Source: Actinomycetes bacterium (GTDB lineage Bacteria > Actinomycetota > Acidimicrobiia > Acidimicrobiales > SZUA-35). Taken from it: a DNA stretch of 32,605 bases. Shown in pieces: positions 1 through 28,819 of the stretch (its first letter is position 1; every line of letters starts with the position of its first letter). The translations under genes and the position numbers were made by a program. Below the pieces are notes generated by a model, which worked only from the letters and a program-made list of their open reading frames with translations, made no database searches and was not told where the DNA came from. The stretch spans positions 1 to 32,605 of the forward strand of contig JAJRQY010000025.1 in the NCBI GenBank assembly GCA_024280015.1, in the 5' to 3' direction.

Positions 1-202
1 GAACACGTCGAGGATTCATAGTTACTGTGGTGACAGATCTCCCGACGAGTTCGAACGGGCCTATAATGCTGTCCAGGCCGCTTTACCAGCGGAAACTATT
101 AGCACGTAACGGACGGCCTCCAACAGACCCAGGTTGCTTCAATACTGGACCATGCGCTACTGCACCGATGCGATACGCGCGCCAACGGATAGAGGGGTTG
201 GA
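1..202 (+). promoter_or_regulatory. Leader region upstream of the yjjI gene
   Basis: The first codons read E-H-V-E-D-S and then TAG at 19-21, so the tail of an upstream plus-strand gene could end here, but this is too short to identify. A perfect TATAAT hexamer lies at 62-67, with no good TTGACA-like box at the usual 16-18 bp. A possible TGACAG at 31-36 is too far away. The hexamer is therefore only a candidate -10 box for yjjI. GAGGGG at 192-197 is the likely ribosome binding site for the ATG at 203. Confidence 0.3.
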
Positions 203-1756
203 ATGAAGAACGACGAGCTACAACAGCAAGTTCGACAGATTGTGAATGACCCTGCACTCTCGTTCCATCTCCGGCGGCACTATCTTGCTGCGGCGGCTGA
301 GGCAGTGATGCCGTACCCGTTGTTGAGTGCCGATGCCAGTGAGGCGTTGGAGAAACGCATCATCTGCGACATGTTTGAGGGGCCAGCCCCATACCGGCCG
401 CGCTATGTCTTGCCGGACTACGCCAAGGCGTTGCGACAAGGCTCGGCCTTCTTGGAACTCGAAGCTCCTTCTGACTTCGACGATGCCCTCAGTTTCCTCT
501 TGATTCTCTACACCCAGGTCCCATCCATCACCGGCTACCCGGTGTTCCTCGGCGAGCTGGACTCCTTGCTGATGCCCTTCGTTGGTGACATATCCGACGA
601 TCATCTCCATAAATCGCTGCGCCGCTTCTGGATCTCGCTTGACCGCATGCTCCCCGACGCTTTCGTTCACACCAATATTGGCCCAACGGACAATCGGGTG
701 TTGAGAATGATCTTGCGGCTAGAACGTGAGTTGCTCCAAGTCGTGCCCAATGTGACCCTCAAGGTCGATCCCGAGCTGACTCCGGATGACCTGATTGAGG
801 ACGCGGTCCAGACGGTCTTTGCTTGCGGCAAGCCGCACTTCGTCGACGACCCGATCATGAAGCGGGACCTTGGCGACAATTATGGGGTCGTGAGTTGCTA
901 CAACTCGTTGAGGATTGGCGGCGGCGCCCATACCTTGGTCCGGTTGAACCTAAAGGAGGTTGCTCTCGGGCATCAGGGCAACACTGAAGAGTTTCTCGAG
1001 ACGACGCTTCCTCACTATGTGGAGTTGAATGCCGAGTTGATTGAGGCTCGGATCAAGTACCTGGTGGAAGAAGCGACGTTCTTCGAGCATGACTTCTTGG
1101 CAGTTGAGGGCTTGATCAGCTTGGACAAGTTCTCGGCCATGTATGGGATCTACGGACTAGCCGAAGCGGTAAACCAACTGATGGCCTGTGCGGGCAAAGA
1201 AGGGACCTACGGCCACGATCGGGAAGCGAACGAGCTGTCTTACCGAATCACCCGACGGGTCGCCGAACTGGTTGGCGATCGCGAGATGCCCTACACCGAT
1301 GGCAACAACGGACGGTGCTTGCTCCATTCCCAATCTGGGATTGATACCGATCTTGAAACCAGCGCCGGGACTCGAATCCCCATCGGGACCGAACCGGCCA
1401 TGTGGGAACATATCGAGGCCGTTGCTCCGCATCACGATCTGTTCGCTGCTGGAGTCTCAGACATCTTCCATGTTGAGGACACAGCCAAGCGCAACCCTCA
1501 AGCCATGGTCGACATCATCCGAGGCGCATTTGCCCGCGGCATGCGGGACTTCACCTTTAACCTGTCAACCAACGGCTTCATCCGGATCACCGGCTATATG
1601 GTCCGAGTTAGTGACCTCGAAGACTTCGAAGAAGATGGTGCACGCCATGGCAGCACAACATTCGCTGCCGGATCGGTCAAGAACTCTCATGTGCAATGCC
1701 GATCAATCAAGCGGGTCGCTGTCCGTGAACGAAACCCGGTTGGGCCACCTCAATAA
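203..1756 (+). CDS. yjjI: YjjI-family glycyl radical enzyme
   Basis: This encodes a 517-residue member of the YjjI (DUF3029) branch of glycyl radical enzymes, whose substrate is unknown. The frame is open from 134, but ATG 203 has GAGGGG just upstream and gives almost exactly the length of E. coli YjjI (516 aa, from memory). The C-terminal glycyl-radical loop reads R-I-T-G-Y-M-V-R, with the radical-bearing Gly at residue 464 (codon 1592-1594). The likely thiyl cysteine lies in V-V-S-C-Y-N-S-L, followed by the family-like G-G-G-A-H-T-L-V-R-L-N-L. The adjacent overlapping gene encodes the matching activase, which supports the call strongly. Such enzymes are destroyed by oxygen, so this implies function under anoxic or micro-oxic conditions. 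The reaction cannot be named from the sequence. Confidence 0.9.
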   Translation: MKNDELQQQVRQIVNDPALSFHLRRHYLAAAAEAVMPYPLLSADASEALEKRIICDMFEGPAPYRPRYVLPDYAKALRQGSAFLELEAPSDFDDALSFLLILYTQVPSITGYPVFLGELDSLLMPFVGDISDDHLHKSLRRFWISLDRMLPDAFVHTNIGPTDNRVLRMILRLERELLQVVPNVTLKVDPELTPDDLIEDAVQTVFACGKPHFVDDPIMKRDLGDNYGVVSCYNSLRIGGGAHTLVRLNLKEVALGHQGNTEEFLETTLPHYVELNAELIEARIKYLVEEATFFEHDFLAVEGLISLDKFSAMYGIYGLAEAVNQLMACAGKEGTYGHDREANELSYRITRRVAELVGDREMPYTDGNNGRCLLHSQSGIDTDLETSAGTRIPIGTEPAMWEHIEAVAPHHDLFAAGVSDIFHVEDTAKRNPQAMVDIIRGAFARGMRDFTFNLSTNGFIRITGYMVRVSDLEDFEEDGARHGSTTFAAGSVKNSHVQCRSIKRVAVRERNPVGPPQ

Positions 1757-2585
1757 CACTATTCCGTTCTCCCTGGTCGATGGACCGGGGAATCGGTTCG
1801 TCATCTTCCTCCAGGGTTGCAACTTCAACTGTGTCGCTTGCCATAACCCATACACCATCGCAACATGCAACGGCTGCGGCCTTTGTGTGGAAGAGTGCCC
1901 CGAGGATGCGCTCTCGTTGGGTTCTTTGGTCAAGCCCGATGTCGATCTGGACCGCTGCACCAGTTGCGAGATCTGTGTTGATGCCTGCATCTATGACAGC
2001 ACGCCGCTGAGCATGTGGGTTTCTGTTGCCGATCTTCTGGTTGAGATCAGACGTCACGCTCCATTCTTATCCGGGATCACGGTGTCGGGTGGGGAAGCCA
2101 CGCAGCAACCCGAATTCGTCTTCGAACTTTTTGCCACCATCAAGGCTGACGCAGAGTTGAGCCACCTCACAACCTTCGTTGACTCCAACGGGGCGACCCC
2201 GATCGCTATCTGGGACATGCTGGCGCCGGTCATGGACGGGGCAATGATCGACCTGAAGGCGTTCGATCCCGAAATCCACCGTGCATTGACCGGTTCCAAC
2301 AACGAACAGGTCTTGCAATCAATCAGCTACCTGGCTCGTCTGGGGCTTCTGCATGAGGTCCGAATGCTGATCGCTCAAGGCAGCAACGATAGCTCTGACC
2401 AGATGCATCGAACAGGTCGCTGGCTTCATGAAGTCAACGCGGATAGTCGCGTCAAGGTGATCGGTTTTCGTGATCACGGGACTCGACCAATGGCCAGTCG
2501 ATTGACCGAGCCGGACCATGGCCTGCTCACACGCGTTGCCGACGACCTTCGGAGGACAGGCGCCCGCGATGTCATCATTATCTGA
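1725..2585 (+). CDS. yjjW: YjjW-type glycyl radical enzyme activase (radical SAM)
   Basis: This radical SAM enzyme is expected to install the glycyl radical on the YjjI product. With the GTG start at 1725 it has 286 residues, close to E. coli YjjW. It begins with the family block I-P-F-S-L-V-D-G-P-G-N-R, then C32-x3-C36-x2-C39, which binds the SAM-cleaving 4Fe-4S cluster. An inserted 8-Cys ferredoxin domain follows (C-N-G-C-G-L-C-V-E-E-C-P and C-T-S-C-E-I-C-V-D-A-C), typical of glycyl radical activases. The sequence V-S-G-G-E-A-T-Q is the GGE SAM-binding motif. The start overlaps the end of yjjI by 32 bp in another frame, which indicates translational coupling. ATG 1689 in the same frame is an alternative start but would add 12 unconserved residues. 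Confidence 0.9.
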   Translation: MNETRLGHLNNTIPFSLVDGPGNRFVIFLQGCNFNCVACHNPYTIATCNGCGLCVEECPEDALSLGSLVKPDVDLDRCTSCEICVDACIYDSTPLSMWVSVADLLVEIRRHAPFLSGITVSGGEATQQPEFVFELFATIKADAELSHLTTFVDSNGATPIAIWDMLAPVMDGAMIDLKAFDPEIHRALTGSNNEQVLQSISYLARLGLLHEVRMLIAQGSNDSSDQMHRTGRWLHEVNADSRVKVIGFRDHGTRPMASRLTEPDHGLLTRVADDLRRTGARDVIII

Positions 2586-17444: not shown

Positions 17445-18974
17445 TCAGCTCTCGCGTACTTCGATGGTTCCCATCATGCCGAGGTCTTCGTGGTCCAGAA
17501 TGTGGCAGTGGTAGACGGTCCGACCCATGAGACCGATAAACGGCACCAGGATCTTGACCGATCGATTGGCCGGAACGTTGATCGTGTCTTTCCAACCAGC
17601 ATTGACGTCATTGGCTAAAACAAAGGGCCAGACATGCAGATGGAAGGGATGATCCATGGGAGTCGTGTTGACAATCTCCCATTCCTCAACCGTCTCGAAC
17701 CGGACTCTCGAGTCGGTCCGGGCGCCGTCAAAAGCGTTGCCGTCAATGGTGAATGACATTCCTCCTCCCATCATCCCTCCCATTCCCATGCCAAGTGTGA
17801 GTACTCGCTTGGCAGTTGGTTCGAGAAGGCCCGGGTTGGCTTCGGGGTCGATCTGGTTGGGTAGAGATGCCGCTGGCCCGGTCCCTGTGACCGAGAGGAT
17901 GGCGATGGTCAGATCGGTGCTCCCACCAGCATCCCCGCGGTTTCCCATCATCCCTCCCATTCCCATGCCGCCGCGATCGTAAGGTAACGCTCGAAGTTCG
18001 TATTCTCCGGCTTTTTCTGGGGTGATGCCGAACTCGATACGTTCCCCTGGGGCGAGCAGGAGGTCACTAACTGGCCGTGGCTCGCTCAGTCGGCCCCCGT
18101 CGGTCCCGATCAGGTGAAGCTGATGCTCAGTTAGCGCCAGGCGGTAGTAGCGCGATGAACTCGCGTTTACCATTCTCCATCGCTCCAGTTTTCCGACCTC
18201 GGTGGTCATGGTCGGCGCTTGCACTCCATTGACCAGGACGGCGTCACCTTGGCGACCGGCCATGGCGTCCATGCCGCCAACATCGAGTATCCGCGAATCC
18301 GACCCAATCGGAGGATCAGAAAGAACCAGAACTCGTTCGGTGGATTGAGCAAGCCAGGGGAGATCGTCGAGGGAGTCTCTGACCAGGATGACCCCGGCGA
18401 GTCCGCCTGCAACCTGCTTGGCCACGGTTCCGTGGTCATGGGGGTGATACCAAAACATGCCGCTGCGTTGGCTGAGAGGTATGTCGTACTCATAGGTAAA
18501 CGTCTCACCCGGGGGGATGGAGACAAAGACATTGTCGGCGTTTCCTTCCGGCGACACGTGTAAACCGTGGGTGTGAAGATTCGTCTTCTCTTCCAACTCA
18601 TTCTCCAGATGAATGATGAGCTTGTCGCCCGGACGAATTTGGAGTGTTGGACCAGTTGTGCCGCCGTTGTAGGTCAGGGCGAATCGAGTGCCGTCCCTCC
18701 ACGGGATCTGACTAGCTTCGGCCCGAAGGGTTAGCTCGAGGATCCCGTCTTCGCTGGAGAGCACCGATGGTTGCGTCATGCTTCGACTGCCAGACAGGGC
18801 AGGGATGAGAGATTCTCCCGATGATCGTGTCCAAAACCAGATACCAAGGCCTGATGCACCAAGCCCAATCAAGGCCGCGCGGCGGCTGAGCCCGCGGCCT
18901 TGTCGGGTAGTAGGTGAAGGTGGAAAGGTTTGGCTATTGTCGAATGCCCGAGGCTCCGGGCTGTGACTGGACAT
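17445..18974 (-). CDS. Multicopper oxidase (CueO/laccase-like), Tat-exported
   Basis: This 509-residue three-cupredoxin multicopper oxidase probably oxidises Cu(I) or organic or metal substrates outside the cytoplasm. The N-terminus has a twin-arginine signal (S-R-R-A-A-L-I-G-L at 30-38, then a hydrophobic stretch). All copper-ligand motifs are present: H134-T-H136-G, H177-P-H179-D-H181, H442-P-F-H445-L-H447 and H489-C490-H491-xxx-H495-xxxx-M500. Two Met-rich segments contain identical G-M-G-M-G-G-M-M-G nonapeptides near 336-344 and 395-403, likely for Cu(I) capture. A 25-bp palindromic operator lies directly upstream, about 7 bp before ATG 18974. Its A/T ends can supply a -10 box, so the mRNA may be leaderless. 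Length and motifs are complete. Confidence 0.95.
   Translation of the reverse strand: MSSHSPEPRAFDNSQTFPPSPTTRQGRGLSRRAALIGLGASGLGIWFWTRSSGESLIPALSGSRSMTQPSVLSSEDGILELTLRAEASQIPWRDGTRFALTYNGGTTGPTLQIRPGDKLIIHLENELEEKTNLHTHGLHVSPEGNADNVFVSIPPGETFTYEYDIPLSQRSGMFWYHPHDHGTVAKQVAGGLAGVILVRDSLDDLPWLAQSTERVLVLSDPPIGSDSRILDVGGMDAMAGRQGDAVLVNGVQAPTMTTEVGKLERWRMVNASSSRYYRLALTEHQLHLIGTDGGRLSEPRPVSDLLLAPGERIEFGITPEKAGEYELRALPYDRGGMGMGGMMGNRGDAGGSTDLTIAILSVTGTGPAASLPNQIDPEANPGLLEPTAKRVLTLGMGMGGMMGGGMSFTIDGNAFDGARTDSRVRFETVEEWEIVNTTPMDHPFHLHVWPFVLANDVNAGWKDTINVPANRSVKILVPFIGLMGRTVYHCHILDHEDLGMMGTIEVRES
17766..17969. repeat. Two perfect 27-bp direct repeats within the multicopper oxidase gene
   Basis: Positions 17766-17792 and 17943-17969 are identical over 27 bp. 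Read on the minus strand they both encode the G-M-G-M-G-G-M-M-G motif. The lack of synonymous differences suggests recent duplication or gene conversion of a Met-rich metal-binding cassette. Confidence 0.9.
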
Positions 18975-20027: not shown

Positions 20028-20906
20028 CTATGCGCAGATGTGTTCGGCAATCCGAGCAAAGTGATGAACCTGGAGCCCACCACTCATGACGCTCAGAGCA
20101 ACAAGGACCGCACTCGTTGCCATCGCTCGGTGAAGGAGCCTCGGCTGGATTGGAGAACCGATCAGGGCTTCGACTCGAGTGGGAATAGAGGATCCTCCAA
20201 AGGATCCAACCAGACCGTGGTAGGTCGACGTGGCCAGTGCGGCTCGAGCAACAGCTGTTGCGACAAGATCATGGTCGCCGTCTACTTCCTGAGCAGCGGC
20301 TTCGTCAGCGCACTGCTCAGTGGCCAGTCGAAGCTGATCGACGAGAGGTCCAAGCCAAGGAAGAACGGCAACAGCGAGAGCGCCGACGAGTAAGAAACCA
20401 GCGTGGTGTTGTCGCAGATGTGCCCGCTCATGGGCGAACAGAACTTTTCGTTCCCGTGGGCTTAGTGCGGTTAGTAACCCTTGGGAGACGACGATGCAGC
20501 CAGGAGAGCCGGGAGCGGCATAGGCGATTGGTTCGTCAGTTTCGAGAATGGAGAGGCCAAGGCCCTGGGTTCCGGCTACTGCTCTTCGACGGATCGAAAT
20601 AACTGAGCGAACGCGAACAGCGATAACCAAGAGTAGGCCGAGAGAGGGGAGACCGATGGCGGTCCCGACCTGATGGTGAAGCGGGATGATCGGGCACCAC
20701 CTCACCAGCGCGGCGATTGGTCCCGTGGTAGCAAGAAGGCTAGCGGCAGTAACTACCAGGATGCCCAATGCTGTGGTGGCGGCCGCGGCAGCGAGAATGG
20801 TGGTCAGCACGAGGGTGGCGGCGGGTTGCATCGTCCAGCGAATCTTGCCAGCCCCGATACCAAGTAGAACGGCCGCTAGACCGGGAAGAATCAGCGAAAG
20901 GGTCAC
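20028..20906 (-). CDS. M56-family membrane metallopeptidase (BlaR1/MecR1-like)
   Basis: This is a 292-residue membrane protein with four or so TM helices and a zinc protease motif F-A-H-E-R-A-H (HExxH at 159-163). E197 in A-T-E-Q-C-A-D-E-A is the probable third zinc ligand. M56 proteins cut and inactivate BlaI-type repressors in response to a signal. Unlike BlaR1/MecR1 there is no C-terminal penicillin-binding sensor domain: the protein ends shortly after a last hydrophobic helix, so any signal must be perceived by the membrane or loop regions. GTG 20906 overlaps the BlaI stop (GTGA), showing tight coupling. It is convergent with the hydrolase gene. Confidence 0.92.
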   Translation of the reverse strand: MTLSLILPGLAAVLLGIGAGKIRWTMQPAATLVLTTILAAAAATTALGILVVTAASLLATTGPIAALVRWCPIIPLHHQVGTAIGLPSLGLLLVIAVRVRSVISIRRRAVAGTQGLGLSILETDEPIAYAAPGSPGCIVVSQGLLTALSPRERKVLFAHERAHLRQHHAGFLLVGALAVAVLPWLGPLVDQLRLATEQCADEAAAQEVDGDHDLVATAVARAALATSTYHGLVGSFGGSSIPTRVEALIGSPIQPRLLHRAMATSAVLVALSVMSGGLQVHHFARIAEHICA

Positions 20907-21262
20907 TTGCGTTTCCGATGGAGAATCTTACGAAGGGCTGCGGCATCCTCTTTGCTTAGGGTCTCGACAAAGGAGTTGAGGACGGCTGTTCTGTCACCGG
21001 CCTCTCCCAAGGAGTGTTGCATCGAGTCTGCATGGTGCTCGGCCTCAGACAGAACCGGGGAATAGACGTAGGTTCGACCAACACGGTGGCGGGTCAGTCG
21101 ACCCTTGTCCCAAAGGCGAGTAAGGACCGTCATGACGGTGGTGTAAGCCAACTCGGGTGCGACCGCTTCGTGGGTCTGAGCGGGTGAGGCGGCGCCATCG
21201 CTGGTCCAGAGAAACTCCATGACCGAGTCTTCGAGTGCACCCAATGGCCGCTTCTTACTCAC
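20903..21262 (-). CDS. BlaI/MecI/CopY-family repressor
   Basis: This is a 119-residue Penicillinase_R-family winged-helix repressor. The N-terminal block L-G-A-L-E-D-S-V-M-E-F-L-W, then A-Y-T-T-V-M-T-V-L-T-R-L-W-D-K-G-R-L and the wing R-V-G-R-T-Y-V-Y, are diagnostic. The C-terminal helices mediate dimerisation. It has no Cys at all and thus lacks the C-x-C...C-x-C metal site of CopY, so induction is more likely by proteolysis through the coupled M56 protease. GTG 21262 is preferred to GTG 21301 because AAAGGA lies six to seven bases upstream. It is the likely reader of the five 7-3-7 palindromes in this island. No such site is visible in its own upstream 164 bp. Confidence 0.93.
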   Translation of the reverse strand: MSKKRPLGALEDSVMEFLWTSDGAASPAQTHEAVAPELAYTTVMTVLTRLWDKGRLTRHRVGRTYVYSPVLSEAEHHADSMQHSLGEAGDRTAVLNSFVETLSKEDAAALRKILHRKRK

Positions 21263-21426
21263 TCTTGATCCTTTCGTTGGTTGGCATGGCTGTTGCTGCA
21301 CTGGATCGTAGTCGATTGGCCAGGAAACGTAGCAGGAAGGAATTGCCTGGTCCTATTCCGCTACCTGTCGACCCAGCTAGCTATCGGCGGCCATCCTCCT
21401 CGGAACCACTCTTTGCCACCGTACCT

Positions 21427-23001
21427 TCATGAAGCTGCGCTGACCAGGAAGGCCGTCGCGGCCGTAGCGAAGAGAAGTACCAGGGCTTCTCCGGTGACCG
21501 TTCGGCGGAACTCGCGGTCGAGTTCGACATTGTTTACATCGCGTGAAAGTTGGGGGATGAGGACTCTGTGGTTGTAGGCACCCATTCCAGCAGCAAGAGC
21601 TACCACGGCGGTCTTGAGCATCAGGAGGCGCCCCCAGGGGGTCGACCAGAGTTCTTGCGGGGAATCCAGAACAATGAAGGTCAGCAGGAGGCCAGCGCCT
21701 CCGACGAAGGCCAGCGCGATGGCAGCTACCACCGAAAAACGCAATGCTAGTTGGAGAGCCCTTAACTCGCGGTCAAGCCGGTTGCGGCGCCATAGAACCA
21801 GTGCCAGCATGATCAATCCGCCGGTCCAGACGGCTGCACCAGTGACATGGATCGTATTGACGATGGCTGTGACAACCCGGTCGCCCTTGCTGGCTGTATG
21901 TCCGTCGAAGGCGAAGGAAAGCACCAAGAGTGCCGAGCCCAGGAGAGCACCTGCAGATTCGGTGGTTGGCGCCCATGCGGCATCACCATCTTGGTGGTAG
22001 GGGAGAGAAGGCTGATTGTTCGGGCCTGGATCAGTAACCGACTCAGATCCGGCACGCAAGCGAACATCGACCTGCCCGATGCCAACGGCAACTAGTTCTT
22101 TGACAGCAAGAACAGGATCGGTGGCTCGGGTAGCGGGGTGGATATCCAGGCTGGTCTCTGACGCGAGGAGGTAGCCACCTCCAATTCGAAGGGCGATGGC
22201 AATTCCGAAGGAGGAGAAGAAGGTGGACCAGATGACGGAGGGGGACCAGATTCCAGACCAGGATCCCGATTCGACCACTAGTTGTGCTGCTGATGTGAGC
22301 ACCGGTCCGAGAATGGCGAGGACGCCGGCCCGACGAATCCAATAGACGACATGGCTGACGTCACCACTTGTTCCGCGCAAGACAAGCAGCGCAAAGGCAA
22401 GAGCGCCGACACCTAAAAGTGTCCCGGAAAGCCCAAGAAACCTACCCAATGCACCAAGTCGGGCTGCTCCCTGTGTGGCAGACGAATCGACTTGGAGAAA
22501 ACTATCGAGGTTGGTTGTGGTCGCTGGCAACTCGTTCAACGTTGGGCTTGTGGGCTCCGTCAGTGGGCCGGACCCGTTGCTTGCCGGGCCGACAGTTTCG
22601 ACCACGAACCGAAAACTTCCCTCGATTGGGTGCTTGTCTGGGGCCTTCACCTTCCAGCGAACGCCGATCTCTCCGCTTGGGAGAGGTGGCTCAAACTGCA
22701 AGATCCAGGTTCGGCCATCGGGTGAGGTTTCTGTGATGGGGGTGCGAAGTACGCCGTCTGAATCAAGGACTTGGAATCCGTCGCCCGATGGCTCGGCTTG
22801 TGCGGTGAAGACGAGCGTGATTGCGGCAACGGGTTGGCCAAGGACCGTTCCGTTGGCCGGGTCTGAAGACTCGAACCCTGTATGGGCCGAGGCGGGCGTT
22901 GGGCTGAGCGTCAAAATGACGGCGAAGGCCAGGGCAGCGATGAGACGCTTCGCTGGGCCCGTCGTCGGCGGAACATGGCGCCACGAGTTCGATTTGAGCA
23001 T
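21427..23001 (-). CDS. CopC-CopD fusion, copper resistance/uptake membrane protein
   Basis: This 524-residue fusion has a signal peptide ending in P-A-S-A, followed directly by mature H-T-G-F-E-S-S-D-P-A-N-G. The new N-terminal His is the expected Cu(II) ligand of the CopC domain, with a second ligand in D-K-H-P-I-E-G-S-F. CopC covers about 35-130, then comes a Pro/Thr linker and a CopD domain with about eight TM helices (about 185-524), including N-T-I-H-V-T-G-A-A-V-W-T-G-G. It should bind copper outside the membrane and pass it across or hold it. ATG 23001 has AAGGA four to five bases upstream; upstream TTG 23031 is less likely. The CopD part contains a roughly 60-residue hydrophilic insertion near the middle. 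Operator B lies 60 bp upstream. Confidence 0.92.
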   Translation of the reverse strand: MLKSNSWRHVPPTTGPAKRLIAALAFAVILTLSPTPASAHTGFESSDPANGTVLGQPVAAITLVFTAQAEPSGDGFQVLDSDGVLRTPITETSPDGRTWILQFEPPLPSGEIGVRWKVKAPDKHPIEGSFRFVVETVGPASNGSGPLTEPTSPTLNELPATTTNLDSFLQVDSSATQGAARLGALGRFLGLSGTLLGVGALAFALLVLRGTSGDVSHVVYWIRRAGVLAILGPVLTSAAQLVVESGSWSGIWSPSVIWSTFFSSFGIAIALRIGGGYLLASETSLDIHPATRATDPVLAVKELVAVGIGQVDVRLRAGSESVTDPGPNNQPSLPYHQDGDAAWAPTTESAGALLGSALLVLSFAFDGHTASKGDRVVTAIVNTIHVTGAAVWTGGLIMLALVLWRRNRLDRELRALQLALRFSVVAAIALAFVGGAGLLLTFIVLDSPQELWSTPWGRLLMLKTAVVALAAGMGAYNHRVLIPQLSRDVNNVELDREFRRTVTGEALVLLFATAATAFLVSAAS

Positions 23002-23060
23002 GGATTCCTTGGGGTAAAGCCTCGTGGTCAAATGACCGCTGTCTGCGCCGGGCGACAGAC

Positions 23061-23927: not shown

Positions 23928-24806
23928 GTGAGATGGCCTGGCCTGGTTTCTTGCAGTCTTGGCCTTTCTATGCTCCTCGCGGCGTGTGGTTTTGGCCGGT
24001 CCGACGTGGTGGCATCAGCCGGAGACCTTGGCCACATTCACGATCTGGCGTTCAATTCTGAAGGTCAGCTCCTGGCTGGCTCACATACTGGTCTCTACCG
24101 GATTGAGAGTGTTGATAGGGCTGTTCTCGTTGGGGCGGAGCAACACGACCTGATGGCGATGACTCGGAACAGCGACGGCGATCTGATTGCCAGTGGTCAC
24201 CCCGATCTTCGAGTAGAGAGCTACCGGGTTGAAGGACGACCACCTTTCCTTGGTTTGGCCAAAAGTGTTGATGATGGCAGCACCTGGTCTTCGCTGGAGC
24301 TGCTCGGTGACGCCGACTTCCACGCCTTGGTTCCGCACCGTGATGGTTTGTTCGCGGCTGAGACCATGGGACAAATCTGGTTCCTCAATCTGGATGGGGA
24401 GTGGAGTCAACGCGGCTCGATTGAGGCCAAAGACTTGGCAATCGATCCCAACGACTCCTCCCAACAGTTGGTGGTCGACTGGGACTCACAGGTTTGGGTC
24501 AGTGTGGACGGAGCACAGACATGGCAGGAGCTCGATGACGCGCCTGGCCTGGTTGAAGTCGAATGGCCAGAATCCGGAAGCATCGTGGGTGTGGATGAAG
24601 ATGGACAGTTCTGGCGCAGCAGTGAGATCTTGGGGCCCTGGCAGCAAGATGTGATGGGCCCACCTCAGGTTGAGACCTTCATGGTTGGTCTGGCAGGTAA
24701 GCGGTCTGGTACCTGGTGGATCACCGCGGTGGGAGGCGAGATCTCCAGTAGCTCGGATCAGGGAGTGACGTGGACCCCGGTCTATGTCCCACCGGTTGAT
24801 GGATAG
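23928..24806 (+). CDS. Beta-propeller (BNR/sortilin-like) lipoprotein, F510_1955-like
   Basis: This is a 292-residue lipoprotein: the signal peptide ends in L-L-A-A-C20, the lipidated Cys. The mature part consists of short beta-propeller repeats: G-H-I-H-D-L-A-F, L-L-A-G-S-H-T-G-L-Y-R-I, D-L-M-A-M-T, D-L-I-A-S-G-H-P and several D-x-G-x-T-W Asp-box-like motifs. This layout matches proteins annotated as F510_1955-family glycosyl hydrolase, a name that probably overstates the known function. No glycosidase active site is evident. It lies 46 bp after the DUF3105-like gene, probably in the same operon, and may be an extracytoplasmic scaffold or metal-related factor. GTG 23928 has no clear ribosome binding site. 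Confidence 0.8.
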   Translation: MRWPGLVSCSLGLSMLLAACGFGRSDVVASAGDLGHIHDLAFNSEGQLLAGSHTGLYRIESVDRAVLVGAEQHDLMAMTRNSDGDLIASGHPDLRVESYRVEGRPPFLGLAKSVDDGSTWSSLELLGDADFHALVPHRDGLFAAETMGQIWFLNLDGEWSQRGSIEAKDLAIDPNDSSQQLVVDWDSQVWVSVDGAQTWQELDDAPGLVEVEWPESGSIVGVDEDGQFWRSSEILGPWQQDVMGPPQVETFMVGLAGKRSGTWWITAVGGEISSSSDQGVTWTPVYVPPVDG

Positions 24807-25605: not shown

Positions 25606-27723
25606 CTACGGGCGGAGGTCGAGGCGGCGTAGCAACTGGGCATTGGCAGCAACGATGATGGTGGAGAGCGACATGGCCACCGCCGCGGCCGCCGGTGGCA
25701 GATTGAGGCCGATGAAGGAGAGTGCTCCGGCGGCAATAGGTATGGCGAGCAGATTGTATCCGGTCGCCCAAACCAGGTTCTGAATCATCTTCCTGTAGGT
25801 GGCAACGGAGAGATCGATAACGCCCGAAACGCTGCGAGGATCACTGGAGGCCAGAACGACTCCTGCCGCTTCGATGGCCACGTCAGTTCCGGCTCCGATG
25901 GCGATGCCAACGTCTGCTCTTGCTAGAGCAGGAGCATCGTTTACGCCGTCTCCGACCATTGCCACCCGCAAGCCTCTGGCTTGAAGCTCGGCAACTTTGG
26001 CATCCTTGTCTTCAGGAAGCACTTCAGCGAAGACCTCATCAATGCCTAGCTGATCGGCCACGCTCTGGGCCACCTGTGCGGCATCGCCGGTGATGAGAAT
26101 GACCTGCTTGCCGCGTGCGTGCAAGGAGTCGATGGCAATCTGAGATTCGGGTCGGATCTCGTCGGCCAGAGTGAGGGCCCCAATCACTTCCGCCTCGGCC
26201 ACGATGTAGAGAACCGAGCCACCATCACGCCTCCATCGATGGGTCCTGGTTGTGACTTCTGCTGGCTCCGTCAGGCCGAGATATTCCAGAAGAGCGGGCC
26301 CGCCGACGGAGATTCGAGCACCATCAACGGTGGCGGCAACGCCCCGACCTGTCAGGGTTTCAAAGTCTTGCCCCTTGGGTCTGTTGGCGATGTCCTTGGC
26401 GGCGGCAACGATGGCCTTAGCGACCGGATGCTCACTTTCTTCCTCCGCTGCTGCCGCCACGGCGAGCATGCCCTCGCTGGTCCAGCCAGAAATGGCGATC
26501 TGGTCGACAACTGCATGGTTTCCCTTGGTAAGTGTGCCGGTCTTGTCAAAGAGGACGGCATCGATATTGCGCATTGATTCCAGGGCCAAGCGGTCCTTAA
26601 CCAGGATTCCAGCACGAGCTGAAGTTGCCGTTGAAATGGAGATGACGAGGGGGATGGCGAGCCCCAACGCATGGGGACAGGCGATGACTAGAACGGTGAC
26701 TGTGCGGATAACTCCCTCGGACGGTTCTCCAATGATTGACCAGATGATGAGGGTCACAACCGCCGAACCGGTGGCCAGGTAGAACAGGGCAGCGGCCGCC
26801 CGGTCTGCCAGCGCCTGGGTTCGTGAACTGGAGGCTTGGGCACCCTCCACCATCCGTTGGATGCCAGCAAGCGTCGTCTCGTCTCCAACTGCGTTGATCT
26901 CGACACGGACCGAAGCGTCAGTCGAAACTGTCCCTGCGACGACTCGCTCGCCGTTGCGTCGACGGACTGGTCTGGACTCGCCCGTGATCATTGATTCGTC
27001 AATGAGTGCTCCGCCGCCGACGACTAGACCATCGGCAGGAATTCGCCCCCCCGGCCTAACCAGGACGATGTCGCCGAGGCGGAGTTCGTCAATGGAGACT
27101 TCCTCCAGCCCAGCATCAGTTTCTCGTTCGGCAAGGTCTGGTAGCAGTTCAGCCAGTGCGGCGAGAGCACCTCGGGCTTGGCCGATCGCCTTCATCTCCT
27201 GCCAGTGACCAAGAAGCATCACAACGATGAGAGCGGCCAGTTCCCACCAGAAATCGAGATCCCCGATGCCGAAGAAGGAGGCAAGCGACGAAACGTAGGC
27301 GACCGTGATGGCCAGGGCGATGAGCAGCATCATGGCCGGCTGACGTTGACGGGCCTCGTCCAAGCCGCCTTTGAGGAACGGGCGCCCTCCCCAGAAATAG
27401 ATGATGGAGCCGACGACAGGAGGAATCAGCGTGGGAAGTGTGCCCTCAATTGAGTAGCCAAACCAGCTCTGGATTTGAGAGGAGAAAGCCAAGACCGGTA
27501 CCGCGAGGGCCAGATTGATCCAGAACAGTCGGCGGAACATGTTTGGATCGTGGCCAGCGTGTTTGTCGTGGCCTGTGTGTTTGTCGTGGCCTGTGTGTTT
27601 GTCGTGGCCTGTGTGTTTGTCGTGGCCTGTGTGTTGGCTCGTGTCAGCCATGGGCGTTGGATCTTCATCGGCATGAGCTGCAACGTTCATCGAAGAGTGT
27701 TGGTGTTTGTCGGGTTCGGCCAT
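25606..27723 (-). CDS. copB: Copper-exporting P-type ATPase, CopB (P1B-3) type, with His-rich N-terminus
   Basis: This 705-residue P1B-type ATPase pumps copper out of the cytoplasm using ATP. The ion-path motif is C349-P350-H351, the CPH form typical of P1B-3/CopB rather than C-P-C. Other motifs are phosphorylated D393 in D-K-T-G-T-L-T, E-H-P-V-A-K-A (the HP motif of heavy-metal ATPases), T-G-E-S-R-P and G-D-G-V-N-D-A-P-A. Instead of a Cys-type HMA domain the N-terminus is cytoplasmic and His-rich: four identical T-G-H-D-K-H units followed by A-G-H-D. About eight TM helices are present. Operator D lies 31 bp upstream, between this gene and the divergent selenoprotein gene. Family call is certain; Cu(I) versus Cu(II) preference is not. 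Confidence 0.96.
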   Translation of the reverse strand: MAEPDKHQHSSMNVAAHADEDPTPMADTSQHTGHDKHTGHDKHTGHDKHTGHDKHAGHDPNMFRRLFWINLALAVPVLAFSSQIQSWFGYSIEGTLPTLIPPVVGSIIYFWGGRPFLKGGLDEARQRQPAMMLLIALAITVAYVSSLASFFGIGDLDFWWELAALIVVMLLGHWQEMKAIGQARGALAALAELLPDLAERETDAGLEEVSIDELRLGDIVLVRPGGRIPADGLVVGGGALIDESMITGESRPVRRRNGERVVAGTVSTDASVRVEINAVGDETTLAGIQRMVEGAQASSSRTQALADRAAAALFYLATGSAVVTLIIWSIIGEPSEGVIRTVTVLVIACPHALGLAIPLVISISTATSARAGILVKDRLALESMRNIDAVLFDKTGTLTKGNHAVVDQIAISGWTSEGMLAVAAAAEEESEHPVAKAIVAAAKDIANRPKGQDFETLTGRGVAATVDGARISVGGPALLEYLGLTEPAEVTTRTHRWRRDGGSVLYIVAEAEVIGALTLADEIRPESQIAIDSLHARGKQVILITGDAAQVAQSVADQLGIDEVFAEVLPEDKDAKVAELQARGLRVAMVGDGVNDAPALARADVGIAIGAGTDVAIEAAGVVLASSDPRSVSGVIDLSVATYRKMIQNLVWATGYNLLAIPIAAGALSFIGLNLPPAAAAVAMSLSTIIVAANAQLLRRLDLRP
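27559..27630. repeat. Four perfect 18-bp tandem repeats in copB
   Basis: The unit GTGTTTGTCGTGGCCTGT repeats four times without a mismatch. On the minus strand each copy encodes T-G-H-D-K-H in the His-rich tail of the ATPase. Identical codons in all copies point to recent slippage or expansion. Copy number is probably variable between strains and prone to assembly error. Confidence 0.95.
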
Positions 27724-27753: not shown

Positions 27754-27770
27754 AACTACAAACTGTAGTT
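27754..27770. promoter_or_regulatory. BlaI/CopY-type operator D
   Basis: AACTACA AAC TGTAGTT is a perfect 7-3-7 inverted repeat, and its core TACA...TGTA is the classic half-site of BlaI/CopY-family repressors. It lies between copB (minus) and the selenocysteine thioredoxin-like gene (plus), 31 bp from each start. Confidence 0.85.
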
Positions 27771-27800: not shown

Positions 27801-28337
27801 GTGGTCCATTTGATCAGAAGACTTCACATTCGACTCTCCTTGGTCCTAGCGATGTTCGTCTTTGCCGCAGCCTGTTCTTCCGGTGCTTCGCAAGAGTCCA
27901 GTGGTTTGCCAGGAACGGCTGGCAATGACAGTGAGGCTGCGCTTGCGGTGTCACCAATATCGGGTGGTGGTCAGCTCGATTGGGGATCTCTCGAGGGTCA
28001 AGACACGGTCCTGTGGTTTTGGGCACCCTGGTGAGCGACTTGCCGAGCTGAAGCCCCTGCGGTCGTAGAGGTGTATGAAACCTATGGCGAACAAATCAAC
28101 TTTGTTGGGGTCGCCGGTCGAGACGACAGTGGACCAATTGCTGACTTCATCCAAACGTTTGATGTCGGCTCGTTCCCCCACGTGATCGATTCCGACGGGT
28201 CGATCTGGGCTGGATTCAACATCAATACCCAGCCATCGTTCGTTTTCATCAACAGCGATGGATCGGTCGAAACTCACGTCGGTGCACTCGGTGTGGAAGG
28301 TCTCTCCGAGCGTCTCGAGGGGTTACTCGCCTCCTAA
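27801..28337 (+). CDS. Selenocysteine-containing thioredoxin-fold lipoprotein (Mpt53/DsbE-like), TGA recoded at 28032-28034
   Basis: This is one 178-residue frame with a single internal TGA at codon 78. The N-terminus is a signal peptide with a possible lipobox (A-A-A-C25). The domain reads T-V-L-W-F-W-A-P-W, then TGA, then A-T-C81-R-A-E-A-P. This matches the W-x-P-W-C-x-x-C-x-A-E-A-P active site of Mpt53/DsbE-type thiol-disulfide oxidoreductases, so TGA replaces the first, nucleophilic Cys. Downstream the fold continues with no shift: I-N-F-V-G-V-A-G-R-D, then N-T-Q-P-S-F-V-F-I (cis-Pro loop). A nonsense mutation exactly here is possible but unlikely. GTG 27801 lacks a clear ribosome binding site. 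Operator D upstream suggests copper co-regulation. Selenocysteine is inferred; selA/B/C/D are not in the window. Confidence 0.85.
28035..28066 (+). promoter_or_regulatory. Candidate bacterial SECIS hairpin
   Basis: Directly after the TGA, GCGA (28035-28038) can pair with TCGT (28063-28066), CCG (28043-28045) with CGG (28060-28062), and GC (28047-28048) with GC (28053-28054) around a TGAA loop whose second base is G. The loop starts 14 bases after the TGA. The stem is interrupted and short, so this is a suggestive but weak bSECIS; bacterial elements vary greatly. Confidence 0.35.
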
Positions 28338-28393: not shown

Positions 28394-28795
28394 CTACTGT
28401 TCGAAGCCCAACCGTTCTTGCTCGGACCGGACAAAAGCAATGACCGCGGAAATTTCTTCGTCGCTCAAACCAGGGATGGCGGGCATATCCCCAAAGTTCC
28501 AGTGGTGACTCGGTGTTCCGTTCTGGATGGCGGACTCGAAGGAGGGGTCAGGGTGGTGGCCCGGCTGATAGACGATCGAAAGATGTGATGGTCCTTTGTC
28601 GGTTCCGCGGAGGTCATCCCCGTGGCAAGACGCACAGCTCTTGGCATACACATCAGCACCCATCTCCAGGTTCCCTGCCGCAACTGGTTCAGACTCCGTT
28701 GTCGAGCAAGCTGTTGCCAACAGGCCAAGGGTGAGAGCAAGGCCAGTGATTGGTGACCTTTGAGGCCGCAATGCGTTGATCCGAAGAGACATCAT
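28394..28795 (-). CDS. Cytochrome c lipoprotein
   Basis: This is a 133-residue class I c-type cytochrome. The signal peptide ends in L-A-T-A-C30, a probable lipobox. Haem is bound covalently at C54-A-S-C57-H58, and M104 in G-D-M-P-A-I-P-G-L is the likely axial ligand. The short single-haem domain fits an electron carrier tethered to the outer face of the membrane. It may transfer electrons to or from the multicopper oxidase, the thiol oxidoreductase or the respiratory chain. ATG 28795 (or 28792) lacks a Shine-Dalgarno. Operator E ends 8 bp upstream, so a very short or leaderless transcript from a promoter inside the operator is plausible. It lies downstream of the mnh operon on the same strand. 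Confidence 0.93.
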   Translation of the reverse strand: MMSLRINALRPQRSPITGLALTLGLLATACSTTESEPVAAGNLEMGADVYAKSCASCHGDDLRGTDKGPSHLSIVYQPGHHPDPSFESAIQNGTPSHHWNFGDMPAIPGLSDEEISAVIAFVRSEQERLGFEQ

Positions 28796-28802
28796 GGGAT
28801 TC

Positions 28803-28819
28803 TACTACTCATAGTAGGA
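28803..28819. promoter_or_regulatory. BlaI/CopY-type operator E
   Basis: TACTACT CAT AGTAGGA shows the 7-3-7 layout with six of seven arm positions complementary. It lies 8 bp upstream of the cytochrome c start and downstream of mnhG. Read on the minus strand, TACTAT at 28816-28811 could be a -10 box. Confidence 0.65.

Follow-up and report, generated by a model that had tools for sequence, protein, structure and literature searches.

The frame at positions 27801–28337 (forward strand) of the window – the whole 32,605-nt stretch of DNA analysed here – raises two questions: is its single in-frame TGA read as selenocysteine (Sec), and what would a selenoprotein be doing among genes for copper handling? 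A preliminary description, made from the letters of the window, had proposed Sec at the nucleophile position of an Mpt53/DsbE-like oxidoreductase inside a copper island. Our analysis makes Sec at this position (U78) near certain, and we give a probability of roughly 0.6 to the whole reading, namely that the gene encodes an extracytoplasmic, copper-regulated, Sec-dependent thiol–disulfide reductase of the DsbF/Mpt53 type for envelope proteins under copper stress.

From the GTG at 27801 – or the in-frame TTG at 27810, the choice of start codon being uncertain – to the TAA ending at 28337, the frame contains one stop, the TGA at 28032–28034 (forward strand). With this codon read as Sec, translation gives a thioredoxin-fold, DsbF/Mpt53-like protein of 178 residues, in which U78 takes the first position of a UxxC motif (WFWAPW-U78-AT-C81) and is followed by an uninterrupted thioredoxin-like domain that keeps its cis-Pro region (TQPSF, with P145). 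The translation thus agrees with what was first described: a lone TGA at the first catalytic position of WAPWUATC in an otherwise open frame, with the fold and the cis-Pro region undamaged beyond it. Under the standard code the frame splits into short open reading frames, of which the second piece alone (88 residues) reaches listing length; ordinary annotation would shorten the Sec enzyme, on which no NCBIfam model scores at its cut-off. After a hydrophobic N-terminal stretch comes FAAAC (27861–27875, forward strand), which by its pattern we take to be a lipobox, with Cys25 as the candidate lipid-anchored residue. The pattern is present in all 42 alignment rows that extend to the N-terminus, and the enzyme is probably lipid-anchored.

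The same TGA recurs widely in the order, taken to be Acidimicrobiales since loci named as such join rows of the same order in the tree. Across 397 evenly sampled genomes, with a strong match defined as E 1e-30 or better, 66 strong matches were listed in 50 genomes (two of them from the genome of the window itself); 58 contain TGA – 55 one and three two – and eight have none. Among the matches listed for 148 relatives, there are tens of one-TGA copies and others with two. Recurrence in tens of genomes cannot be explained by a base error, and a TGA in 58 of 66 strong matches argues against both such an error and a local pseudogene. The TGA stands at the catalytic codon in all 67 Sec places that were read closely: 66 by strict motif (53 UxxC and 13 UxxU) and one, L027 (L numbers denote loci or alignment rows), whose motif starts with C rather than W and which is outside the strict motif counts and inside the 67-row hairpin alignment. 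The preliminary description would have been refuted by a TGA confined to one strain along with other disruptions; relatives carry the same TGA in otherwise open frames, and some homologues (L039, L043, L045, L074 and L080) have Cys at the catalytic place. A contig scan with WFWAP[WG]C back-translated using Cys codons kept 80 loci with Cys relatives; Cys motif places number 83, in 80 of the 85 loci given. Past the TGA, the window gene differs from each of seven homologues most at the third codon position and least at the second – 31, 23 and 55 differences by codon position over 99 codons in the comparison with L019 – while E84 is kept in 66 of 67 alignment rows and the cis-Pro in 49 of 67, the window included.

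Absent from the preliminary description, and found in the follow-up, is a bacterial SECIS hairpin at 28053–28072 (forward strand), for which an alignment of 67 rows, covariation, folding, a Cys control and places read later all provide evidence. Its arms (28053–28060 and 28065–28072) enclose a GGUC loop (28061–28064), 26 nt past the TGA. The loop is invariant in all 67 aligned Sec genes; the stem in the window has one C·A mismatch, at the fifth pair from the loop, which is unpaired in 46 of 66 distinct rows. Over the eight pairs, 83.0% of cells are paired versus 71.6% in shuffles, and 56 are changed on both sides versus 15.1; the covariation score is 0.311 versus 0.129 in shuffled data (none of 500 as high), and a slid alignment gives at most 0.105. 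Counted simply as pairs with any two-sided change, of which there are five, the hairpin is matched by 305 of 500 shuffles. GGUC together with all six core pairs occurs in 46 of 66 Sec rows versus none of the 83 Cys motif places, where GGTC by itself is found in eight and the six pairs by themselves in two. Among 22 Sec places outside the alignment that were read later, GGTC lies at the same offset in 20 – one of which, L244, probably represents the opposite end of the L087 gene, cut off by a contig end – and the six pairs are present in 18. The two places that lack GGUC, both distant, are L172 of the genome itself and a UPTC frame in L236, which by eye share a different hairpin, TCGAGCA-GTT-TGCTCGA.

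Taken singly, the window hairpin is only mildly stable (z −1.2 and −1.6; 27 and 19 of 200 shuffles equal it); minimum-energy folds of longer stretches that follow the TGA do not show it and are matched by shuffles, so the SECIS claim rests on comparison. Rfam gave no gathering-score match on the window – which says little, as it may lack a bacterial SECIS model – and at relaxed scores one miRNA match, at chance level. When a hairpin model was run on the genome (150 of 3160 candidates scored), the two strong places were both from rows used to build it; the model misses selD and L172, and its other places score E 0.5 or worse, without a convincing Sec gene. In the SECIS of Escherichia coli fdhF, a short stem likewise leads into a loop with the letters GGUC. 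The spacing from UGA to loop varies: 18 nt in fdhF, 26 nt in the window and 32 nt in the genome's own selD, where by eye the GGTC belongs to a hairpin with unrelated stem letters.

The machinery for Sec is encoded in the same genome (4.8 Mb in 175 contigs, 96.6% complete). Contig C15 carries selA (419 bits, cut-off 268), selB overlapping its end (271 bits, cut-off 242) and the tRNA-Sec gene, selC (Rfam 66 bits, gathering score 47; ARAGORN tRNA-SeC, anticodon tca), and there is a selD (L048; 375 bits, cut-off 125) with an in-frame TGA of its own; all four genes that the preliminary description had named are therefore present, each above its curated cut-off. A second match to the SelB model (C39, 203 bits) was rejected as SelB, its sequence being EF-Tu-like by eye. 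As the preliminary description had also held, TGA is a true stop elsewhere in the window: it ends 16 of the 24 other genes listed, the mnh junctions included (several gene names were given by eye). Decoding of UGA as another amino acid, through a code change or a suppressor, would account for the open frame and has a negligible probability in the face of these TGA stops, a tRNA-Sec with the tca anticodon found by both Rfam and ARAGORN, and the restriction of TGA to catalytic positions in the closely read genes. A plain nonsense change or sequencing error in a Cys enzyme, to which the break-up of the frame under the standard code might point, has as vanishing a probability, because TGA recurs in the open frames of relatives and is joined by a covarying SECIS, coding selection past the TGA and a full set of Sec genes. 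Pseudogene, base error and code change were accordingly all rejected, on SECIS covariation, the coding pattern, TGA conservation and the TGA stops.

The genome has further candidate Sec copies that the preliminary description did not include: a UPTC paralogue with a GGUC hairpin (L053, C165:60690–61139), a UPSC copy (L172, on C44) and a ResA-like frame with WASWUGC (L178, on C94), the last two having, by eye, different hairpins past the TGA.

As to the kind of protein, the window product exceeds the Pfam cut-offs for Thioredoxin, AhpC-TSA, Thioredoxin_8 and Redoxin (PF00578 37.2 bits, cut-off 26; PF00085 similar, at 37.6 bits), and its nearest solved relatives by sequence are Mycobacterium tuberculosis DsbF (1.1e-27) and Mpt53 (4.3e-25). 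The Mpt53/DsbE-like label given at the outset is borne out by the predicted structure (mean pLDDT 86.4), whose top matches are DsbF (3ios; Z 23.8, rmsd 1.0 over 128 residues) and Mpt53/DsbE (1lu4; Z 22.4, rmsd 1.1 over 126 residues), with ResA ranking below them (Z 20.8). These mycobacterial proteins share with the window protein the fold, 36–37% identity and the WFWxPW motif, but have Cys where it has Sec. In NCBIfam, the protein remains below the cut-offs of the ResA (59.9 of 170 bits), StoA (59.1 of 210), DsbE (33.1 of 123.15) and TlpA (27.2 of 230) models; it also scores 28.7 bits against a cut-off of 300 with WAxxUGC_long (NF041054), a selenoprotein that is likewise ResA-like with Sec but has UGC where the window motif is UxxC.

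The copper island proved to be real. Divergent from the Sec gene is a copper-translocating P-type ATPase (25606–27723, reverse strand; TIGR01511 554 bits, cut-off 397), and on the other side lies a cytochrome c gene (28394–28795, reverse; PF00034 over cut-off). Further off are a multicopper oxidase (17445–18974, reverse; three Cu-oxidase domains over cut-off), a CopC–CopD fusion (21427–23031, reverse; PF04234 and PF05425 over cut-off), and a repressor of the BlaI/CopY type (20903–21301, reverse), which belongs to the wider family (PF03965, 82.9 bits) and has as its best NCBIfam model CopY_TcrY (TIGR02698), at 45.1 bits against a cut-off of 121.95. Beside the repressor is a membrane peptidase of the M48/M56 type (20028–20906, reverse; PF01435 over cut-off, PF05569 under), a candidate BlaR1-like antirepressor. 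A protein resembling F510_1955 (23928–24806, forward; NF045728 130 bits, under the cut-off of 175) has homologues that recur in copper islands L186, L229 and L239 (the last belonging to island L188/L239). By way of a side observation, the N-terminus of the ATPase is His-rich, with four full TGHDKH repeats and one partial repeat at 27547–27630.

Between the divergent ATPase and Sec genes lies an exact palindrome, ACTACAAACTGTAGT (27755–27769, no strand assigned), a putative BlaI/CopY-type operator, and another, CTACTCATAGTAG, is found upstream of the cytochrome c gene (28805–28817). Palindromes of the form ACTACAnnnTGTAGT number four in the window at up to two mismatches, versus 0.43 expected, the exact one being that at 27755–27769. 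The related island L229 has five versus 0.15 expected, two of them overlapping and one lying between blaI and the Sec gene. At up to three mismatches, L186 has 11 versus 1.75 expected, none of them before its Sec gene, and L188 five (a number reached by 2 of 200 shuffles) versus 1.32 expected, including three with three mismatches in or near the stretch between an ArsR-type gene and the Sec gene. Judging from the sequence, a BlaI-type protein may bind at these palindromes. The copper-type operator that the preliminary description proposed for the Sec gene is plausible, the palindromes being its basis.

The function that we infer for the enzyme would run as follows. SelB would bring Sec-tRNA to the UGA at 28032–28034, and the selenol of U78 would attack envelope proteins (candidate substrates being cuproproteins, copper chaperones and cytochrome c) at mixed disulfides or at thiols oxidised by copper, with C81 as the resolving thiol and a CcdA-type membrane protein re-reducing the selenenyl-sulfide. 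The BlaI/CopY-type repressor, to go by its position and the palindromes, would switch the Sec gene on together with the genes for copper export and oxidation, so that thiol repair would rise at high copper.

Three other accounts of the enzyme accept Sec and depart from this mechanism. According to the first, the main task of the U-x-x-C pair is to bind Cu(I), the protein serving as a chaperone or sponge and not as a catalyst; the copper island would suit such a role, as would the selenolate, which is a soft ligand. We consider it very unlikely, given that the features of the catalytic fold (WFWAPW, E84 and, in the window as in most rows, the cis-Pro) are kept and that the majority of homologues are not in copper islands.

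The second, which we find doubtful, makes the Sec enzyme an oxidase or isomerase of oxidative folding, its copper neighbours reflecting the folding of cuproproteins, not repair. Its closest solved relatives, DsbF and Mpt53, do lend it weight, as does a UxxC motif with the cis-Pro kept: these mycobacterial proteins are described as oxidants and a role in oxidative folding has been proposed for them, and we know of no copper link for either. However, motifs of this type have a lower redox potential with Sec, which favours a reductant, and ccdA-like genes recur nearby. They are found in islands L186, L188 and L229, next to the Sec gene of L055 (where PF02683 is just over its cut-off) and next to the Cys gene of L080; apart from L055, these ccdA-like genes fall under the Pfam cut-off or have no match, and were assigned by kinship and an NPCG stretch. 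The genome of the window has one ccdA-like match (C100:30916–31593), which follows a Cys paralogue (C100:30353–30817); no ccdA frame of the NPCG type was found in the window itself, and searching the PDB with the CcdA-like protein yielded no match. A search for recurrent neighbours returned mostly antisense or chance clusters.

The third account, the strongest of the alternatives and itself on the unlikely side, takes the copper neighbourhood as incidental and the enzyme as a thiol reductase of general use in the envelope. It draws on the placement of most homologues, and of the genome's own paralogue L053, elsewhere: in a scan of 61 loci, the window included, 59 have the Sec motif, and among these 59 only the window, L186, L188 and the UxxU locus L085 have homologues of the window island within 7 kb, most Sec homologues thus sitting outside copper islands. 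By identity, moreover, L020 (59%) and L023 (61%) are closer to the window protein than is L019 (53%), and no copper genes were seen at their loci (L187 and L190, respectively), although absence of copper genes outside the islands is weak evidence because many loci are short. Set against this is the tree. In the first one, the window gene groups with L186 (row L019) and L188 (row L021) in a set of three (SH-aLRT 95). A later search added G259, with 57% identity to the window protein, whose surroundings, L229, hold genes for a ccdA-like protein, M56, blaI, CopC–CopD, cytochrome c, a multicopper oxidase, an F510_1955-like protein and CopA; these were inspected only once the copper pattern had been noticed. 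In the larger tree, the four copper-island members come together, although with a support of only 26, and the three rows nearest to the window by tree path are the other three of them, all in copper islands, with differing gene order. Palindromes in the divergent intergenic regions of the window and L229 also count against an incidental setting. The gene divergent from the Sec gene is of the CsoR type in L186 and of the ArsR type in L188, and a CopA is found close to L235, too, as it is to the UxxU gene of L085/L238.

Besides the proteins with UxxC, the family has a sister clade with two Sec residues in a UxxU motif, which both trees place by itself on one side of a branch (support 100; 11 of 100 rows in the first tree, 13 of 109 in the larger one). 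In all 18 UxxU proteins that reach the cis-Pro place – 12 in the alignment (L047, L061, L068, L070, L073, L076, L077, L079, L082, L085, L086 and L088) and six beyond it (L087, L236, L237, L241, L242 and L243), L244 ending before that residue – the cis-Pro is replaced by Arg, whereas the other 55 alignment rows have Pro (49) or Ser (six) and never Arg. The 18 cases count as one evolutionary event, not 18. The Ser rows are L063, L066, L069, L071, L074 and L075, five of them UxxC and L074 Cys. In the UxxU genes, the two UGAs start 9 nt apart; the loop follows the first at 26 nt and the second at 17 nt, the latter distance being close to that in E. coli, and one SECIS apparently serves both. Peroxiredoxins, too, have Arg at the cis-Pro place, according to a paper that adds that cis-Pro may bar metal binding (PMC2757866).

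Selenoproteins of this general kind were already on record, which the preliminary description did not mention. Prx-like thiol:disulfide oxidoreductases (pfam00578, UxxC/UxxU) are tabled as predicted selenoproteins (PMC9312934, PMC13188914), and they resemble the window family in PF00578, UxxC, a UxxU counterpart like the sister clade and a predicted thiol oxidoreductase function; their type member is WP_010940744.1. The available portions of the two papers name no Acidimicrobiia, copper island or DsbF/Mpt53 kinship. UXXC Prx-like proteins can be traced to a survey of the Sargasso Sea (PMC1088965). UxxU is also recorded for a distant group, Prx-like 2 (PMC2398784); proteins of this SelL kind are there called very distant from known Prxs, with no strong prokaryote homologue sequenced by then, and the reference list includes Shchedrina 2007, on UxxU of the SelL kind. 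They, like the sister clade, have two Sec residues in one UxxU motif, but the clade differs in its likeness to DsbF and in the Arg that stands in place of the cis-Pro. For Actinobacteria, 12 Sec families have been counted, with Symbiobacterium named as rich (PMC1794560). The window gene is therefore a new representative of an existing kind, thioredoxin-fold selenoproteins with UxxC/UxxU being known, and it comes with a copper-linked branch. Searches of the open-licence literature turned up no account of a branch in copper islands, nor of a DsbF/Mpt53 protein with Sec.

We tentatively suggest, with less confidence than for the reductase itself, that a Sec thioredoxin-like family radiated within the order, giving rise to a copper-island branch, which would be wired to islands of the BlaI/CopY or CsoR type for Sec-dependent thiol repair under copper stress, and to a UxxU/Arg clade of possible diselenide peroxidases, with one SECIS for two UGAs. 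Were this so, selenium use would be tied to copper defence, a Sec family would have multiplied within one actinobacterial order, and UxxC, CxxC and UxxU/Arg would be natural forms of one fold, matched closely enough to make the advantage of selenium over sulfur testable.

Two minor observations may be added. At L057 and at L081, in two genomes, two UxxC genes of the family lie in tandem. Near the start of the window (134–2585), there is a glycyl radical enzyme of the YjjI type (697 bits, cut-off 498) with a YjjW-like activase (222 bits, cut-off 250).
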